Made by a program: the position numbers and the translations under genes. A DNA stretch of 25,682 nucleotides from a virus: positions 1-25,682 of the IMG/VR virus record IMGVR_UViG_3300022562_000146. One strand, 5' to 3'. Below the pieces are notes generated by a model. It worked only from the letters and a program-made list of their open reading frames with translations, did not search any database and was not told the origin of the DNA. Below are positions 5,255 through 24,523 of the stretch, piece after piece. Position 1 is the stretch's first letter, and every line of letters starts with the position of its first letter.

Positions 5255-6463
5255 ATGGAAGAACTCAAGAAACTGCTCGAGGAGCAGGGTCGCGCCCTTG
5301 CCGAGTTCCGCAAGACGAACGACGAGCGGCTGGCCGCGCTGGAAAGCAAGGGGTATGCCCCTGCCGATCTGACCGAGAAGGTCGCGAAACTGAACGACGA
5401 ACTGTCGGCAATCGGTCGCAAGATCGACGAGGTGCAGACCAAGGCCAATCGTCCTGCCGGCGCGGGGGTCGCCATGACCGCCGACCAGCAGGAACACAAG
5501 CAGGCGTTCGGTCGCTGGCTGCGGAAGGGTGACGAGGGAGGCCTCGCGGAGATTCAGCGCAAGGCCATGAACTCCGGTACCGACCCGCAGGGCGGGTACC
5601 TGATCCTGCCCGAAATGGACATGGCGATTGATCGCGTGGTGCCGACGATCTCGGCGCTCTATCGGATCTCGCGTCAGGTCACCATCGGCACGCAGAAATG
5701 GCAGAAGGTCGTCAAGAAAACCGGCATGGCGATGACCCGTGTCGGCATCGGCGGCACTGCTGGCGAAACGACCGAACCGACCTATGCTCGCATCGAGATC
5801 GAGGCCTACACCGCCGAGGTCGAACCGTGGGTGTATAACGAGACGCTCGAGGATTCGTTCGTGGACCTCGAGGCCGATCTCGCGATGGAGGCCGGTATCG
5901 CCTTCGCCGAGGGTGCCGGGTCGGAGTACTGCACCGGAAACGGCGTGAACAAGGCACGCGGCATCACGGCTTACAACAACGTCGCGAACGCCTCGTATTC
6001 GTGGGGCAACGTCGGATACATCGCCTCGGGCAAATCGGCGGCATTCGCCTCCGTCGCCCCTGCCGATGCCATCGTGAATCTGCAGCACGCGCTCAAGCAG
6101 CAGTATCGCCCGGGCGCGGTGTTCGTAATGAGCGATGCGACGCTCGCCCTGGTTCGCCAGATCAAGGATGCCAGCAACGCCTACTACCTCTGGAACCCGG
6201 ATGCCGCTGCCGGCTTCGGTGGTCGCCTGCTCGGTTCGCCCGTCGAGGTCGACGACAATATGCCGACTATCGCGGCCAACTCGTACAGCATCGCCTACGG
6301 CAATTTCCAGCGTGGCTATGCGGTCGTGAATCGTGCCGGTACCACGGTGATCCGCGATCCGTACACGGCCAAGGGAACCACGAAGTTCAATTTCCGTCGC
6401 CGGTTCGGTGGCGGGATTTACAACTTCGAGGCGATCAAGCTGATGAAGTTCGCGACCTCGTAA
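5255..6463 (+). CDS. Major capsid protein (HK97 fold)
   Basis: 402-aa shell protein. Residues 1 to about 65 are a charged coiled coil (MEELKKLLEEQGRALAEF onward), the delta-type scaffold expected in HK97-like capsids that lack a separate scaffold gene. A Gly/Ala linker follows, and the core begins around SGTDPQGGYLILPE at 107-120. The protease probably cuts near residues 103-106, by analogy with relatives and not shown directly. Later typical segments are VEPWVYNETLEDS, the EGAGSEYCTGNGVNKARGI stretch, GGRLLGSPV at about 325 and RRRFGGGIYNFEAIKLMK at the end. The start follows GAGAGGAGT. A hairpin follows 19 nt after the stop, perhaps limiting read-through or protecting the 3' end of an abundant message. 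HK97-style cross-link residues cannot be assigned by eye. Confidence 0.96.
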   Translation: MEELKKLLEEQGRALAEFRKTNDERLAALESKGYAPADLTEKVAKLNDELSAIGRKIDEVQTKANRPAGAGVAMTADQQEHKQAFGRWLRKGDEGGLAEIQRKAMNSGTDPQGGYLILPEMDMAIDRVVPTISALYRISRQVTIGTQKWQKVVKKTGMAMTRVGIGGTAGETTEPTYARIEIEAYTAEVEPWVYNETLEDSFVDLEADLAMEAGIAFAEGAGSEYCTGNGVNKARGITAYNNVANASYSWGNVGYIASGKSAAFASVAPADAIVNLQHALKQQYRPGAVFVMSDATLALVRQIKDASNAYYLWNPDAAAGFGGRLLGSPVEVDDNMPTIAANSYSIAYGNFQRGYAVVNRAGTTVIRDPYTAKGTTKFNFRRRFGGGIYNFEAIKLMKFATS

Positions 6464-6537: not shown

Positions 6538-6972
6538 ATGAATGATCTGCACAACAACTGCGACGCGCAGCGTGCGCTCGGCCCGGTGGCCTTGACGACC
6601 GTTGCCGGACTCGCAGGCAAGGTTCTCGACCGTCAGGGGTTCGGCGCTGTCGAGTTTATCCTGTCCTACGGTGCCGTCACCGCGACGAACGCCACCATCA
6701 CCCCGGTGGTCAAGGAAGGCGATGCGACGGGTTCCATGACCAGCGTCGCGGACGGTGACCTGATCGGCACCGAGGCTCTGGCCGCGTTGCCGGCGCAGGC
6801 GACCGCTCGTACCTCGGGCACCGGCAAGTTCGTCAGCACGCGAGTCGGCTACAAGGGCACCAAGCGGTACGTTTCCTGCGGCATCGCCTCGACGACCGTC
6901 ACGGCAGCGACCATCGTGTCGATTGCTGCGGTCATGCACGATCCGCAGATCGCGCCCGTCGCGAACCCGTAA
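6538..6972 (+). CDS. Small structural-type protein of unknown function (possible capsid decoration)
   Basis: 144-aa protein with no enzyme motif, no membrane segment and a composition rich in Ala, Thr, Val and Gly, typical of a beta-rich virion protein. Similar small proteins recur just downstream of capsid genes in many siphophages. The recognisable pattern is a DRQGFGAVEFILSYG strand region, then a TPVVKEGDATGS-type segment, and a VGYKGTKRYVSCGI strand near residues 102-115. It is preceded by AAGGAGGT, essentially a full match to the 16S rRNA anti-SD, so high-level synthesis is expected. Position and predicted abundance fit a decoration or spike protein on the shell, but this is inference. 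Alternatively it could be a minor head or neck component. Confidence 0.75.
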   Translation: MNDLHNNCDAQRALGPVALTTVAGLAGKVLDRQGFGAVEFILSYGAVTATNATITPVVKEGDATGSMTSVADGDLIGTEALAALPAQATARTSGTGKFVSTRVGYKGTKRYVSCGIASTTVTAATIVSIAAVMHDPQIAPVANP

Positions 6973-7065
6973 GGGTGAAGGAAAATCGGGCACGCTGCTC
7001 GTCCCAGTGTGTCGCCGGATCCGTAACCGGCACCCCTTCAATGATCTAGGACGAGGAGATCCAAA

Positions 7066-8499
7066 ATGCAAGACGGCGAGAGACAAGTTGCACCGGTTGT
7101 GAGTGGCATCCGGCGAGATCATGTTGCGCGGTACGAATGGGCCGCAAAGGTGATCGACAAACTGGTACACGATGGCCGGAAGGTAATCGACATTGCCTGC
7201 GGGATCGGCTATGGATCAAACGTGCTGGCCCGGTCGCGGTTCAATGTGACGGCGATCGATATCGATGCCGAGGCGCTCGAGTACGGGCGCAAGCATTACG
7301 CGCACGACCGCATCACGTTCCTGCAGGGCGATGCCAGCAATCCGGAGGGTGGACTTGAATCCGATAACCGGATTTCGACGCAGCGGTGGCACGCGGCGAC
7401 GGTATTCGAGACGGTCGAACACATCGAGGATCCGCGACCGCTGTTGAAATGGCTGCGCGGTCGGGTCAAGGTGCTGCTCGCGAGCGTCCCGAACGAGGAG
7501 GTATTTCCGCATCAAGGCCGCGTGAAATTCCATTTTCGCCACTACACACCGGGCGAGTTCGCCGCACTGCTCAAGGAGTGCGGGTGGATGGTGAACGCCT
7601 GGTACGGTCAGGCAGGACCGGAGTCGGAGGTCGAAAAAGGCCGGATGGGTCGCACGATCATCGCGGTCGCGGTCCCGGCACCGGTCGAGGAAATAACCCG
7701 AGAGCAACCGAAAGGCGAACCGAAGGACGTTACCGCCGAGTTCAAGGCGGCGGCGCTGCCGGCCAAGGTGCCAGATGCGGTTGCGATCCTCGGACTCGGC
7801 CCATCGGTCGCGGAGTTTCTCGATTTCAGCAAGCGGCTCGGCAGCACGAAACGGTTGTGCGACGAGGTCTGGGCGATCAATGCGCTCGGCGGTGTCCTGA
7901 AATGCGACCGCATTTTTCACATGGACGATATTCGCATTCAGGAGGCACGCGCCAAGGCCGACCCGGGCAGCAATATCGCCGCGATGGTCGAGTGGATCAA
8001 GGAGCATCCCGGGCCGATCTACACCAGCAGGCCGCATCCCTCGTATCCCGGCATGGTCGCGTTCCCGCTCGAGGACGTTCTGAACCATTTTCAGCACGAC
8101 TATTTCAACTCGACAGCAGCGTATGCGGTTGCGTATGCGGTGTATATCGGAGTCAAAAAGATCCTGCTGTTTGGGGTCGACTTTACATATCCGAACTCGC
8201 ACAAGGCCGAGAAGGGACGCGCCTGCGTCGAGTTCTGGCTCGGGCAGGCCTCGGCGCGTGGCATCAAGATTTCCCTGCCAAAGACGACCTCGCTGATGGA
8301 TGCGATTCACGACCGATCCGAGCGCCTGTACGGGTACGATACCGTCGATGTTCAGCTGGTCCCGGTCGGCCCGGGCAAGATCACTGCGAAGTTCACCGAG
8401 CGCGATCAAGTGCCGACCGCTGAGGAGATCGAATCGCGATATGATCACTCACGGCACCCGTCGCCGCTGATGCAGGAGGAGGAACCCGCAGATGCTTAA
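7066..8499 (+). CDS. Fused SAM-dependent methyltransferase and DUF115/MAF-like glycosyltransferase-type enzyme
   Basis: 477-aa two-domain protein. Residues about 15-205 form a class I methyltransferase with the AdoMet-binding VIDIACGIGYGS motif at 40-51, the acidic AIDID at 63-67 and FETVEHIEDPRPLLKWL at 114-130. After a charged linker, residues about 235-425 resemble the DUF115/MAF/MptE-like family, with AILGLGPSV at 240-248, DRIFHMDDI at 281-289 and the NSTAAYAVAYAVYIGVKKIL helix ending in FGVDF at 348-373. Family members include flagellin glycosylation factors and pterin pyrophosphokinases, so the exact reaction is uncertain. The gene starts after GACGAGGAGATCC. It ends with an 8-nt overlap into the connector gene, so it is translated with late morphogenesis genes. 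It is not a usual head-module component, and a virion-modifying role is my inference. Confidence 0.82.
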   Translation: MQDGERQVAPVVSGIRRDHVARYEWAAKVIDKLVHDGRKVIDIACGIGYGSNVLARSRFNVTAIDIDAEALEYGRKHYAHDRITFLQGDASNPEGGLESDNRISTQRWHAATVFETVEHIEDPRPLLKWLRGRVKVLLASVPNEEVFPHQGRVKFHFRHYTPGEFAALLKECGWMVNAWYGQAGPESEVEKGRMGRTIIAVAVPAPVEEITREQPKGEPKDVTAEFKAAALPAKVPDAVAILGLGPSVAEFLDFSKRLGSTKRLCDEVWAINALGGVLKCDRIFHMDDIRIQEARAKADPGSNIAAMVEWIKEHPGPIYTSRPHPSYPGMVAFPLEDVLNHFQHDYFNSTAAYAVAYAVYIGVKKILLFGVDFTYPNSHKAEKGRACVEFWLGQASARGIKISLPKTTSLMDAIHDRSERLYGYDTVDVQLVPVGPGKITAKFTERDQVPTAEEIESRYDHSRHPSPLMQEEEPADA

Positions 8500-9289
8500 A
8501 TTGGTATCAGGACCGACCGCCGAACCGGTGTCGCTGACCGAGGCGAAGGCATGGCTGCGGGTGACAGACTCGAACAGCGATACGCTGATCACGCAACTTA
8601 TCGCGAGCGCCCGTCAGTCGGTCGAAATGTTCACGCATCGAATCCTGGTCGCGCAAACGTGGGAGCAGTATCTCGACCAGTTCCCTCCGGGCGACTCGAT
8701 CAGTCTCGGGCTGTACCCGTATCGGTCGATCACGCATATCAAGTATTACGACACCGACGGAACGCTGCAGACGGTCGACTCTGCCGATTATCAAACGCAT
8801 CCGGTGTTCATACCGCCACGGGTGACCCCGATCTACGGGGGGAATTGGCCGTCCTCGCGTGGATGGATCAACGATGTGGTGGTGCGGTTCATCGCGGGTG
8901 ATGCGGTGTCGATCAGCGCCGATGCGTCGACCGATGTGATCACCGCGACCGGGCATGGGTACACCGACGGGGATCTGGTCAGGTTCTGGAATACGGGCGG
9001 GGCGCTGCCGACGGGGTTGTCTGCGAACACCGACTACTATGTGCGCGATGCGACGGCGACCACGTTCAAGGTATCCGCGAACAGCGGCGGCGCGGCTGTC
9101 GATATCACCGGTGCCGGAACCGGGACGAATTTCGCAGGGGATATCCCGAGGGCACTGATTGACGGCCTGCTGCTGCTGGTGGCCCACTGGTACGACAATC
9201 GCCAGACGATGATTGTCGGCAATATCGTGAACGAGGCTCCGATCAATGTTCAGTCGGTGCTGATGCCCTACCGGGTGTTCGAGTTCTGA
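8492..9289 (+). CDS. Head-tail connector protein (gp6 / phiE125 gp8-like) with an inserted beta domain
   Basis: 265-aa connector subunit that sits under the portal ring. The opening (GPTAEPVSLTEAKAWLRV, then DTLITQLIASARQSVE and a TWEQYLDQFP strand) and the C-terminal IPRALIDGLLLLVAHWYDNR helix are characteristic of the gp6-like connector family. Between VVVRFIAGDA (to about 138) and GDIP (from about 216) lies an extra segment of roughly 75 residues carrying HGYTDGDLVRF and ATATTFKVSANSG. In simpler family members this loop is only a few residues long, so it looks like a domain inserted in a surface loop. A related module occurs in the tail tube protein. ATG 8492 follows GGAGGAGG and overlaps the previous gene by 8 nt. 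Confidence 0.88.
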   Translation: MLKLVSGPTAEPVSLTEAKAWLRVTDSNSDTLITQLIASARQSVEMFTHRILVAQTWEQYLDQFPPGDSISLGLYPYRSITHIKYYDTDGTLQTVDSADYQTHPVFIPPRVTPIYGGNWPSSRGWINDVVVRFIAGDAVSISADASTDVITATGHGYTDGDLVRFWNTGGALPTGLSANTDYYVRDATATTFKVSANSGGAAVDITGAGTGTNFAGDIPRALIDGLLLLVAHWYDNRQTMIVGNIVNEAPINVQSVLMPYRVFEF

Positions 9290-19722: not shown

Positions 19723-20037
19723 ATGGCAAAAAAAACCATCCATCTATTCGTCGAGACGAACATCGTCACCGAGACTCATACGCACCGGACGATTCGCGGT
19801 GTCGAGCAGGCCGATCACGTAATCCGCGAGGACTATGTCGCTGTTGGAATCGACGAGGACGGTCAGACGTTGATCTCGAGGATTTGCGCCAGCGATGCCG
19901 ATGCGCGTGCGTTTCTGAAATCGGACACAGCACGGGCTGCGTTCGAGAATCACCACGGGAAGGACATTATCCTGGTCGACGAGGATCTCGCGAAACCGAG
20001 CAAGAAGTTCAAGACCGCCATCGGGAGGGTTAAATGA
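19723..20037 (+). CDS. Protein of unknown function
   Basis: 104-aa protein, soluble, with no enzyme motif or membrane segment that I recognise. It opens [15 protein letters not shown] and ends with a basic tail ([13 protein letters not shown]). The centre has alternating strand-like and acidic stretches ([20 protein letters not shown]). It begins 18 nt after the preceding stop without a strong ribosome site and overlaps the fibre start (ATGA), so it is expressed with the fibre. It could be a small fibre-associated or chaperone protein, but no function should be assigned. Confidence 0.65.
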
Positions 20038-22043
20038 GCGCATATATCACCGGGACGGTCACTGTCACAAATGGCGACGCAACGGTCGTCGGTGTCGGTA
20101 CGTCATGGCTGACGGAGATTACCGCTGGCGATCTGTTTTCGATTTCAGGGAGCGGTGTCACCTATGAGGTCGCATCGGTCACCGACGATACGCATCTGGA
20201 ACTGAGCGCGAATTACGCGGGAACGAGCGGGAGCGGCAAGGCATACATGATCGTGCGCGACTTCACCGAGTCGCAGGAGTACCCGTACACGAATCCCGGC
20301 GACACGCTGAATACGGTTTCAACCATCGTCAAGCGGCTCGCCGTCATGCTCGACGACTCGATGAACAAGGGATTCAAGCAGACTGTTCGAGTTGCGACGA
20401 CTGCTGCGCTCGCGGCAAATACCAGATCCGGAAACGTCCTGACAGCCGATGCGAATGGTGCGCTCGCGGCGATCGATGGCGTGAGTCTCGTCGTCGGCAA
20501 CCGGTTGCTGGTCAAGGACGAGGGCACCGGGGCGAATAACGGCATTTATGTCGTGACCGACTTGGGTGATGCATCGAACCCGTGGGTACTGACTCGGGCC
20601 GGCGATTTCGATACCGATGCGGAGGTATTCGCGCAAGTTCAGGTGCCGGTCGCGGAAGGGTCGGCAAACGCGGACCTGGTATTCGGCCTGACGACGAACG
20701 ACCCGATCACACTCAATACGACTGCCCTTGCTTTTGCGGCATCTGCGACAGGACCGCAGGGGGCGCAGGGAGCGCAGGGCGTTCAGGGGGCGCAGGGCAC
20801 GCAGGGCGTGCAGGGAGCGCAGGGCGATACCGGGGCGCAAGGCGCACAAGGGAATCAAGGCAACCAAGGCGATACCGGCGCTCAAGGGCCGCAAGGGACT
20901 CAGGGCAACCAAGGCACGCAGGGAGCGCAGGGCGTTCAGGGGGCGCAAGGCTCTGCCGGTGCTGCCGGTGGCGTGGACTTCGTATGGTCAAGTTCGACGA
21001 CGATGGCCGATCCGGGCAGCGGCTACGCACGATTCAACAATGCGACGCTTGCCAGCGTCACGGCTATCGCCATCGACGACCTGACCGCGAGCGCGGTGGA
21101 CGTATCGGGCTGGATCACTTCGTTCGACGATTCCGACAGCACGATCAAAGGCACGTTGACCATCGTCAAGGACGGTGATTTCAGCGTGATCGCGATCTAC
21201 GATGTAACCGGTCTGACCGACAATGTGGGGTGGACCGAACTCGCAGTGTCGCACCACAGCAGCGGCGGCACCTTCACGAACAACGACGGCCTCCGAGTCT
21301 TTTTCTCGACGACCGGCGACAAAGGCACGCAGGGCGCTCAGGGCGCTGCCGGGGCGCAAGGAGCGCAGGGCGATACCGGGGCGCAAGGAGCGCAGGGAAC
21401 TCAGGGCGTGCAAGGGGCGCAGGGAGCGCAAGGCGCACAAGGCACGCAGGGCAACCAAGGCACGCAGGGCAACCAAGGCACGCAGGGCAACCAAGGCACG
21501 CAGGGCGTTCAAGGAGCGCAGGGCGCTCAGGGCGCTGCCGGAACAACGCCGACGACGTTCCTCGTCCTATCCGCCGCTGGCGGCACGCCGACCACGACCG
21601 CAGGGTGCGCGAGTCCGGCGCAGTCCGAGACGACCACGAACAAGATCAACTACTTCTCGCTCGATTTCGATGCCGCGACCGACGAAAACGCATCCTGGAT
21701 GGTGCGTATGCCGACGGATTGGAACGCCTCGACCGTCACCGCGACGTTCCTCTGGACCGCCAGCAACACCGGGAATGTGGTGTGGGCGTGTCAGGCCGTC
21801 GGATTCAGCGACGATGACGCGCTCGACACCGCCCACGGCACCGCGCAGTCGGTGACGGATGGTGTGACGGCTGCCGGTGATGTGATGATTTCGGCGGCGA
21901 CCTCCGCGATCACCATCGGCAACAGCCCGGCTGCGGGAGACTTCGTGGTGTTCCGCGTGTACCGCGATGCCGACAACGGATCGGACACCTGTACGGTGGA
22001 CGCAAAACTGCTGGCGGTCTACATCGCCTATGGGGTGGCGTAA
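20034..22043 (+). CDS. Collagen-like tail fibre protein
   Basis: 669-aa fibre. Residues 1-75 form an N-terminal beta domain ([20 protein letters not shown]), probably for attachment to the tail. Residues about 115-238 hold a fibre domain ([37 protein letters not shown]). A 24-triplet Gly-X-Y block lies at 240-311, a beta domain ([20 protein letters not shown]) at about 313-425, a second block of 26 triplets at 428-505, and a C-terminal beta domain ([14 protein letters not shown]-like, [14 protein letters not shown]) to the end, perhaps the trimerising head. The blocks are very Gln-rich: 41 of 50 triplets end in Gln and only two contain Pro. The protein probably trimerises as a triple helix. 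Start after GGGAGGG, overlapping the previous stop. Confidence 0.9.
20751..20966 (+). repeat. Collagen-like coding repeat, block 1 (24 Gly-X-Y triplets)
   Basis: Twenty-four consecutive Gly-X-Y codon triplets within the fibre gene, 20 of them ending in Gln. DNA repeats are imperfect 9-mers such as GGCACGCAG, GGAGCGCAG and GGCGTTCAG. Two GDT triplets break the pattern. Confidence 0.95.
21315..21548 (+). repeat. Collagen-like coding repeat, block 2 (26 Gly-X-Y triplets)
   Basis: Twenty-six Gly-X-Y triplets, 21 ending in Gln, no Pro. The block shares many 9- to 20-nt words with block 1, so the two probably arose by duplication and could recombine with each other. Confidence 0.95.
21441..21503 (+). 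repeat. Perfect 18-bp tandem repeat, 3.5 copies
   Basis: GGCACGCAGGGCAACCAA occurs three times without change at 21441-21494, followed by half a copy (GGCACGCAG). Each unit encodes Gly-Thr-Gln-Gly-Asn-Gln. Perfect identity suggests recent expansion or slippage. Copy number changes would keep the frame. Confidence 0.95.
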
Positions 22044-22811: not shown

Positions 22812-23288
22812 ATGAAATACGCACTCATTCTGAACAACGCCATCGTGGAGTATCGTGAATATCCCGAGCCGCTATTGCCCGAGCAGATCAAGCACATCGG
22901 CGGTCTGCCGATCCTGCGCCCGGTCGTGCTGGTTCCTGCGGTCGGGTATGACCCGGACATTCATACCAAGTCGGTGAACGAGCAGATCACCGACACACAG
23001 GTCACGCAGACTGAGGTCCGGTCGGATCGCCCACTGGCCGAGGTCAAGGCGTGGAAAATTCGGAGGCTACAAGGCGAGCGCGAGCAGTACATCGAGGGAA
23101 ACTACAGTTGGGCCAACGCGATCACACGCCTCGCTCGCGGCATCCAGAGCAAGACCGACCCGCAGTACACCGTCATGCGCGATGCGCTGATTAACCTCGA
23201 CGGCATCCTGCAAACCGCGCTCGATGCGGTCACGGCGGCGACCACGGTCGATGAAGTGAAGGCAGTCACGGCGAACTGGCCGCAATGA
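22812..23288 (+). CDS. Tail fibre assembly-like / fibre-associated protein
   Basis: 158-aa protein after a good AGGAGAGACAA ribosome site. The N-terminus (MKYALILNNAIVEYREYP) and the LPILRPVVLVPAVGYDPDIH segment form a small domain often found in fibre-associated phage proteins. The C-terminal half begins PLAEVKAWKIRRLQGEREQY and is helical, like many tail fibre assembly chaperones whose last part starts with a Lys- and Arg-rich helix. Its place just after the two fibre genes supports a chaperone role, but no single diagnostic motif proves it. The stop overlaps the glycosyltransferase start (ATGA). Confidence 0.7.
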   Translation: MKYALILNNAIVEYREYPEPLLPEQIKHIGGLPILRPVVLVPAVGYDPDIHTKSVNEQITDTQVTQTEVRSDRPLAEVKAWKIRRLQGEREQYIEGNYSWANAITRLARGIQSKTDPQYTVMRDALINLDGILQTALDAVTAATTVDEVKAVTANWPQ

Positions 23289-24523
23289 TTTCTGTATTCA
23301 CTCCCACCCACGATCCGCGATTTCTGGTCGAGGCATACGAGTCCCTGCTCGCGCAGACCCACAGCGAGTGGGAATGGGTGATCGTGCTAAATGGCGGCGC
23401 GACCTTACCGGTCGAATTGAGCGATGACCGGGTGCATCCGATTTTGGCACCGGACGGGCTGGCCGGGGTCGGGGCACTTAAAAAGTTCGCAACGTCATGC
23501 TGCCGTGGCGATATCCTGGTCGAACTGGATCACGACGACATTCTCGCGCCGACCTGTCTCAAGGAGATTCAGTCGGCGGTCGATGGTGGGGCCGATTTCG
23601 TCTATTCAGACTTCGCCAATTTCTACCACGACGGGAAGTGCCAGATTTACGGGCGTGCGTATGGGTGGGAAAACTACAAGTCGACCGTATGCGGGAAGGA
23701 CGTTACCGCGATGCGTTCGTTCGCACCGGATGCGGGATCACTGTCTGCGATTTTCTTTGCGCCGAACCACGTTCGCGCATGGACGGTCGCGGCCTATATC
23801 AAGGCGGGAGGGTACGACCCGAAGCTGGCAATCTGCGACGACTACGATCTGGTCTGCAGGACGTATCTATCGGGCGCGACGTTTCATCATATTCCGAGGT
23901 GTTTGTACCTGTACCGGATGCGGCAGGATGGAGGGAATACATTTCTAAAACGAAATGCCGAGATCCAGACCAAGCAGCAGGAAGTCGCCAATCGCTATTT
24001 CTACCAGCTGGTGAACGAGTGGTGCCGCAGGGAGGGACTCGAAAAGATCGACCTCGGTGGTGGCATCGGGAAACCGGACGGATACACCAGCATTGATTTG
24101 CGCGGGGGCGATATTGTCGCGGACATAAGGCGCGGGATTCCGCTCGCTGACAATTCCGTCGGTGTCGTGCGTGCGTATGATTTCCTCGAGCATATAAACC
24201 CGGGAGCGGTCGTCCATGTAATGAACGAAATATACCGTGTCCTGGTACCGGGCGGGTGGTTGCTGTCAATGACCCCGTCGACGGATGGGCGTGGTGCATT
24301 TCAGGATCCGACCCATGTATCATTCTGGAACCCGAACTCTTTTTGGTATTACACTCGTCGGGAGCAGCAGAGGTTCGTTCCTGAAATCTCTGCGCGGTTT
24401 CAGGGGAGGCGCGTGTTTCAGGCCTACCCGAGCAAGTGGCATGAGGAGCATCGGATCCTCTATGTATATGCGGATCTTTGTGCATTGAAGGGACAACGGC
24501 AGTCGGGGTTATGCGAGATTTGA
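23285..24523 (+). CDS. Fused family-2 glycosyltransferase and SAM-dependent methyltransferase
   Basis: 412-aa two-domain enzyme. Residues 1 to about 240 form a GT-A fold, family 2 glycosyltransferase: MISVFTPTHDPRFLVEAYES at the start, the metal/nucleotide-sugar motif LDHDD at 81-85 and a probable catalytic-base region ICDDYDLVCR at 183-192. Residues about 250-405 form a short class I methyltransferase with IDLGGGIGKPDGYTSID at 255-271, YDFLEHI at 298-304 and VLVPGGWLLSMTPSTDGRGA at 319-338, then DPTHVSFWNPNSFWYY. That last block recurs in phage-borne methyltransferases. The domain order is the reverse of the enzyme at 7066. The donor sugar and acceptor are unknown. Overlapping the fibre-assembly gene and followed after 1 nt by the endolysin, it is a late gene; glycosylation of tail fibres or capsid is an inference. 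Confidence 0.88.
   Translation: MISVFTPTHDPRFLVEAYESLLAQTHSEWEWVIVLNGGATLPVELSDDRVHPILAPDGLAGVGALKKFATSCCRGDILVELDHDDILAPTCLKEIQSAVDGGADFVYSDFANFYHDGKCQIYGRAYGWENYKSTVCGKDVTAMRSFAPDAGSLSAIFFAPNHVRAWTVAAYIKAGGYDPKLAICDDYDLVCRTYLSGATFHHIPRCLYLYRMRQDGGNTFLKRNAEIQTKQQEVANRYFYQLVNEWCRREGLEKIDLGGGIGKPDGYTSIDLRGGDIVADIRRGIPLADNSVGVVRAYDFLEHINPGAVVHVMNEIYRVLVPGGWLLSMTPSTDGRGAFQDPTHVSFWNPNSFWYYTRREQQRFVPEISARFQGRRVFQAYPSKWHEEHRILYVYADLCALKGQRQSGLCEI

Follow-up and report, generated by a model that had tools for sequence, protein, structure and literature searches.

A conserved phage protein with a methyltransferase domain and a Maf/MptE/GT42-like domain in the head-gene block, and its near-obligate 144-aa neighbour

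What does a protein with two enzyme-like domains do when its gene lies among the head genes of a phage? This question was raised by the ORF at positions 7066-8499 of the window, a 25.7-kb virus fragment that was analysed over its whole length. The window had a standard gene order. A ParB-like/DNA methylase gene and the terminase genes were followed by the portal, protease, HK97-type capsid protein and 144-aa genes, all 5' of the ORF, and then, 3' of it, by the genes for a gp6-like connector, a head completion protein and the tail. An earlier note on this DNA had described a 477-aa two-domain ORF in the head-gene block with an 8-nt overlap on the connector gene, and this description was confirmed. 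The connector ATG was located at 8492, and the overlap reads ATGCTTAA. The connector's own AGGAGG site sits within the 3' end of the ORF. No promoter or terminator was found within the head gene block, and no weight was given to this absence. The features are listed below by coordinates in the window, strand and description.

5255-6463, + strand: HK97-type major capsid protein (Phage_capsid, PF05065, 8.7e-55); alternative acceptor
6538-6972, + strand: 144-aa putative decoration or minor capsid protein (phrog_5707); near-obligate neighbour and proposed acceptor
7053-7058, + strand: GAGGAG resembling a ribosome-binding site, 7 nt 5' of the ATG of the ORF (by eye)
7066-8499, + strand: two-domain protein (P0001), 477 aa, ATG start; 35 further non-redundant loci have this fusion in the same position
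7066-7680, + strand: class I SAM methyltransferase domain, residues 1-205 (Pfam Methyltransf_23, 2.1e-10; conservation)
7771-8340, + strand: Maf/MptE/GT42-like transferase domain, residues 236-425 (AlphaFold2 with Foldseek and VIA; conservation in the siphovirus and marine groups)
8341-8496, + strand: C-terminal tail, residues 426-477, short and moderately conserved (YDHS); model confidence low at the end
8492-9289, + strand: gp6-like head-tail connector; its start overlaps the ORF by 8 nt

The ORF did not arise by chance, because the same fusion occupies the same place in those 35 other viral and prophage loci and its C-terminal half is conserved. Overall, the ORF was real, conserved and under-described; the fold proposed in the earlier note was supported, whereas its suggestion for the sugar donor was weakened. 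Some neighbouring genes had features of their own. The connector holds an inserted beta-rich domain at about residues 137-215, which also matches tail-fibre PHROGs, and the connector of the relatives L014 and L026 cross-matches the tail tube protein. The gene at 54-1361, 5' of the terminase genes, encodes an N6/N4 DNA methylase to which a ParB N-terminal domain is fused.

Domain assignment and predicted fold

The motifs named in the earlier note, VIDIACGIGYGS, AILGLGPSV and FGVDF, were all present in the ORF. Its reading of the first half as a methyltransferase was borne out by Methyltransf_23, which scored 41 bits against the Pfam cut-off of 27; Methyltransf_25, 31 and 11 were also above their own cut-offs. 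Together with a GxGxG-like motif I element and the next acidic residue, these profile matches assign the N-terminal half to the class I SAM-dependent methyltransferases. ACGIGYGS (ACGxGYG), IDID (D-x-D) and FETxEH were conserved among the methyltransferases of the family. When PDB sequences were searched with the protein and with the C-terminal profile (phmmer/hmmsearch), the N-terminal half matched only generic methyltransferases, and the C-terminal half yielded no informative match. A role in anti-phage defence was considered with PADLOC and rejected, the sole match being MADS mad2 over residues 24-95, which is the SAM-binding motif.

The C-terminal domain was modelled with AlphaFold2 on 35 relatives. 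The pLDDT of 74.9 was moderate and was lowest around the His loop. A MAF/MptE-type fold for this half had been set beforehand as the test of the earlier note, and the predicted fold was indeed best matched by MptE and the GT42 sialyltransferases. Six Foldseek matches had E < 0.001, all of which were MptE/HPPK (8sd5) or CstII, with 8sd5 at the top (Foldseek E 1.7e-4; VIA Z 10.1 over 145 residues). The VIA Z values were 9.4-9.8 for Cst-I/CstII, 9.7 for SteA, 8.2 for thiamin pyrophosphokinase and 6.4-7.6 for mammalian sialyltransferases (human ST8SiaIII, 7.6), and those of unrelated rows were below 6. Rows within 1 Z were counted as tied. This applies to 8sd5 and GT42, and therefore sugar transfer and pyrophosphoryl transfer cannot be told apart by the fold on its own. 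A pyrophosphokinase as top single structural match, tied with GT42, counts against the sugar-transferase reading.

The assignment of the C-terminal half to PF01973 held at the level of the fold but not at that of the sequence score, which was 17.7-19 bits against a gathering cut-off of 34.6 and covered residues 349-377 only. Weak PF01973 matches occurred in 31 of 35 relatives (best E 1.4e-4). Moreover, a profile of the siphovirus sequences and 59 marine sequences aligned with bacterial Maf-like proteins across their central domain (hhalign E 1.7e-4 over 125 columns, with a probability of 50% in a single comparison). Similarity to the PF01973/Maf superfamily was thus found over the whole domain, and the Maf/DUF115 superfamily provides the best matches to the predicted fold. 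PF06002 (GT42) gave no match in the window protein at E<=1. CstII scored 5.5 bits against the family profile, which is within the shuffle range, as the best of 300 shuffled CstII sequences reached 5.7.

The conserved motifs of the domain were GLGPS, D281, MD (286-287), FGxD (369-372), H379, E382, GR (384-385), EFW (389-391) and YGY (422-424). In the siphovirus and marine branches alike, the positions with at least 90% conservation included G243, G245, S247, N272, D281, D287, D372, H379, E382, R385, E389, F390 and W391. GLGPS, FGxD and H-x9-EFW match the order and spacing of GNGPS, CGID and H188-x9-EF in CstII. The H-x9-EFW element (H379-x9-E389-F390) was present in 90 of 94 members and missing from four, including L007 and L008, which have T/N instead. 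His188 is the general base of CstII (PMC4202792), and the correspondence of the motifs suggests a catalytic role for H379.

The same structural matches could denote a small-molecule enzyme, as the earlier note had also proposed. An ATP-dependent pyrophosphokinase, similar to MptE/HPPK or thiamin pyrophosphokinase and acting on a nucleotide or pterin-like substrate, would then be joined to a small-molecule methyltransferase in phage or host metabolism. HPPK (8sd5) tops both Foldseek and VIA, thiamin pyrophosphokinase scores well above the unrelated rows, and PF01973 is named after MptE. However, the likeness to the archaeal 6-hydroxymethylpterin diphosphokinase MptE is one of predicted fold only, and the motif order and H-x9-E element resemble GT42/Maf, the families used for this comparison. 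No pterin pathway gene was seen in the gene context of the ORF. Furthermore, a metabolic enzyme need not be tied to one capsid-adjacent gene subfamily over 60 distinct sequences, and it need not turn up again among the head-tail genes of an unrelated marine group. A pyrophosphokinase was considered unlikely.

The protein may also have kept the fold and lost catalysis, thereby serving as a virion component or an assembly factor. Its position in the head block and its extreme conservation fit a structural or chaperone function. Nevertheless, the conservation is focused on GxGxS, D281, D287, D372, E382, R385 and E389, which are common to the marine group at about 35% identity, and an intact methyltransferase has been added in many relatives. 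Such a non-catalytic role was judged quite improbable.

Distribution of the family and pairing with the 144-aa gene

With the C-terminal half as the query, 45 loci in viruses (61-72% identity for nearly all of them) and 19 in genomes were recovered; the latter included prophages in Mesorhizobium, Variovorax and Pseudolabrys. The domain stands alone in the prophages of Pseudolabrys sp. Root1462 and Variovorax sp. WS11 and is fused in that of Mesorhizobium alhagi CCNWXJ12-2. This half was 57-73% identical among the siphovirus-type relatives. The non-redundant full-length members numbered 61 with the window included, of which 36 were fused to the methyltransferase described above, 22 consisted of the domain alone and 3 lay beside a different methyltransferase (Methyltransf_23). 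The best tree implies a minimum of 15 changes between the fused and not-fused states, and well-supported branches force at least 4. The transferase-like domain is therefore the core, and methylation is an exchangeable addition. The fusion, on which the earlier note had centred, is thus a state that was gained and lost.

The window protein had no PHROG match. A search of 50,697 phage records with the C-terminal domain gave one remote relative only, a Microcystis phage protein. This protein (L005:11647-12450) is annotated as 'type 11 methyltransferase' but has the transferase-like motif and looks like a stand-alone transferase-like relative, in which QRPCAEY replaces GRACVEF. PHROG 4603, annotated as alpha-2,3-sialyltransferase, was weakly matched by the stand-alone relative L021 (4e-4) but not by the window protein. 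A distant marine branch at 34-36% identity to the window had 457 matches in viral contigs. Its loci (L151-L230, L067, L068) adjoin SU10-type adaptor genes, and downstream they share conserved genes for proteins of 99 and 142 aa; no 144-aa gene was found in their head-tail cluster. No match was obtained when cultured phages were searched with a marine relative. A literature search, mainly of openly available papers, found no description of this phage family. As judged from these sequence searches, the transferase-like domain family is an undescribed phage family, common in environmental phages (61 non-redundant loci and more than 450 distant marine matches) and nearly missing from cultured phage records and PHROGs.

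The pairing of the domain with the 144-aa gene was explored from both sides. Among the loci found via the C-terminal domain that had enough upstream sequence, the 144-aa gene lay upstream in 50 of 51, and the exception was the distant marine-type L067. Among the loci found via the 144-aa gene, a transferase-domain gene came next in 23/23 at about 43% identity or more and in 0/41 below that value; these counts include near-copies, the distinct sequences being 60 linked and 37 unlinked. The linked 144-aa proteins form one clade on the tree. Hence, the pairing represents one acquisition, kept without seen loss, and it counts once rather than as many independent events. It persists where the capsid protein is only 28-40% identical or is a ClpP-capsid fusion. 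In L008, L013, L030, L047, L055 and L080, HNH- or GIY-YIG-like homing endonuclease genes were seen by eye between the capsid, 144-aa and transferase genes.

The 144-aa protein is probably a decoration protein, because its gene directly follows the capsid gene. The linked forms have an extra loop (residues ~87-97) with R91 in 56/60, where all 37 unlinked proteins have a gap. Position 69 is S/T in 60/60 linked proteins, and S occurs there in 1/37 unlinked ones. The linked subfamily also has Y44, T48 and T50. These subfamily differences (the loop with R91, S69, Y44, T48 and T50) are candidate contact or acceptor sites. The median identity over six proteins was 64% for the transferase domain, 55% for the 144-aa protein, 41% for the portal, 38% for the connector, 35% for the capsid protein and 28% for the terminase. 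The mirror-tree correlation with the transferase domain was 0.72 for the capsid protein, 0.72 for the portal and 0.71 for the 144-aa protein. Mirror-tree comparison was rejected as a means of picking the acceptor, since 0.71 does not separate the 144-aa protein from the capsid protein at 0.72.

These near-equal correlations would also fit a glycosyltransferase with this fold that acts on the major capsid protein, the connector or a tail protein, whose genes share the cluster, instead of the 144-aa protein. In the glycosylated mycobacteriophage virions known so far, the glycan is reported to sit on the capsid protein (PMC11256854). However, the transferase gene stays with the 144-aa subfamily while the capsid protein changes, as in the diverged and ClpP-fused capsids above. 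The other acceptors were given a low probability.

Proposed reaction, sugar donor and known systems

The reading preferred here, with moderate confidence, is that the C-terminal half is an inverting CMP-sugar-type Maf/GT42 glycosyltransferase that acts on a phage head protein, most likely the 144-aa neighbour, with an optional methyltransferase. The domain would move a sugar from a CMP-sugar donor to the head protein, the 144-aa putative decoration protein being the first candidate. The optional N-terminal methyltransferase would then methylate the transferred sugar or the modified product. Decoration of structural proteins had been proposed in the earlier note; the choice of target was strengthened by the near-invariable pairing with one 144-aa head gene subfamily, while sugar transfer is a prediction from the fold, the motifs and the gene context.

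Lipooligosaccharide is the substrate of GT42 enzymes, and many prophage glycosyltransferases alter host envelope glycans. Accordingly, the gene might encode an enzyme that changes the surface glycans of the host (in superinfection exclusion, for example) and is merely parked in the head operon. Against this, it is embedded in late structural genes and overlaps them, it is tied to a capsid-gene subfamily, and it is present in phages of very different hosts, all of which make a host-directed function very improbable.

The donor sugar of the preferred glycosyltransferase is a guess. NeuB is the committed enzyme for nonulosonic acids, the donors put forward in the earlier note. It was found in 2/6 prophage hosts and in 0/15 viral contigs of relatives, some of which are fragments; KdsB was above cut-off in 6/6 hosts. 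PF06002 gave no match in the prophage hosts, and the controls were silent too. A nonulosonic acid as a general rule is not supported by these counts and is doubtful. CMP-Kdo is the favoured guess instead, because Kdo is the ulosonic acid that every host examined can make and activate with CMP, and because Kdo is also among the sugars that the Maf of Clostridium botulinum can transfer to protein (PMC11339370). For the window, Kdo is a guess carried over from these hosts of relatives.

The closest known counterparts are the Maf flagellin glycosyltransferases (PF01973), which share the fold superfamily and the motif order GxGPS, D-P/DD, GxD with the phage domain. Their target is a self-assembling protein, similar to the proposed phage head target. 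According to PMC11339370, the N-terminal domain of Maf is Rossmann-like and has weak methyltransferase-like motifs. In contrast, the phage protein has 477 aa versus about 830, lies below the PF01973 cut-off, carries a real and separately gained methyltransferase, and is encoded in a head cluster with no flagellin. Cst-I/CstII of GT42 (PF06002) have a similar predicted fold and the same H-x9-E spacing after the GxD strand, but the phage domain has no PF06002 match and a sequence score in the shuffled range, and the known GT42 acceptor is lipooligosaccharide. As reported in PMC11256854, phage-encoded glycosyltransferases were proposed to glycosylate the capsid in the mycobacteriophages Che8 and Rita. 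The related Maravista has its glycosyltransferase genes close to the 3' genome end, whereas the Maf/GT42-like domain of the window is inside the head block and has a near-obligate 144-aa partner.

Virion glycosylation is known in few phage systems, to which this family would add a Maf/GT42-type enzyme. It offers a concrete candidate for an enzyme-substrate pair, including in prophages of cultured soil bacteria. A head glycan could alter adhesion, recognition or the stability of the particle, and an enzyme that comes with its own acceptor as a self-contained pair would be useful as a protein-glycosylation tool. A wider proposal is speculative and unlikely: an uncharacterised family of protein-glycosyltransferases with the Maf/GT42 fold would be widespread in phages, would be inherited together with one capsid-decoration subfamily and would place a Kdo-type sugar on the head exterior, with methylation as an option supplied by an exchangeable methyltransferase. 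If true, phages would have their own equivalent of flagellin glycosylation, based on the one CMP-sugar nearly every LPS-bearing host makes.

A second, unrelated fusion was seen at 23285-24523, where GT2 is joined to Methyltransf_11. It has 16 viral relatives, and the match spans nearly the whole length in 12/16. This gene lies 3' of a collagen-like tail fibre gene at 20034-22043, whose 669-aa product has long GAQGAQG collagen-like repeats; this protein is probably a tail fibre and a possible target of the GT2-methyltransferase.
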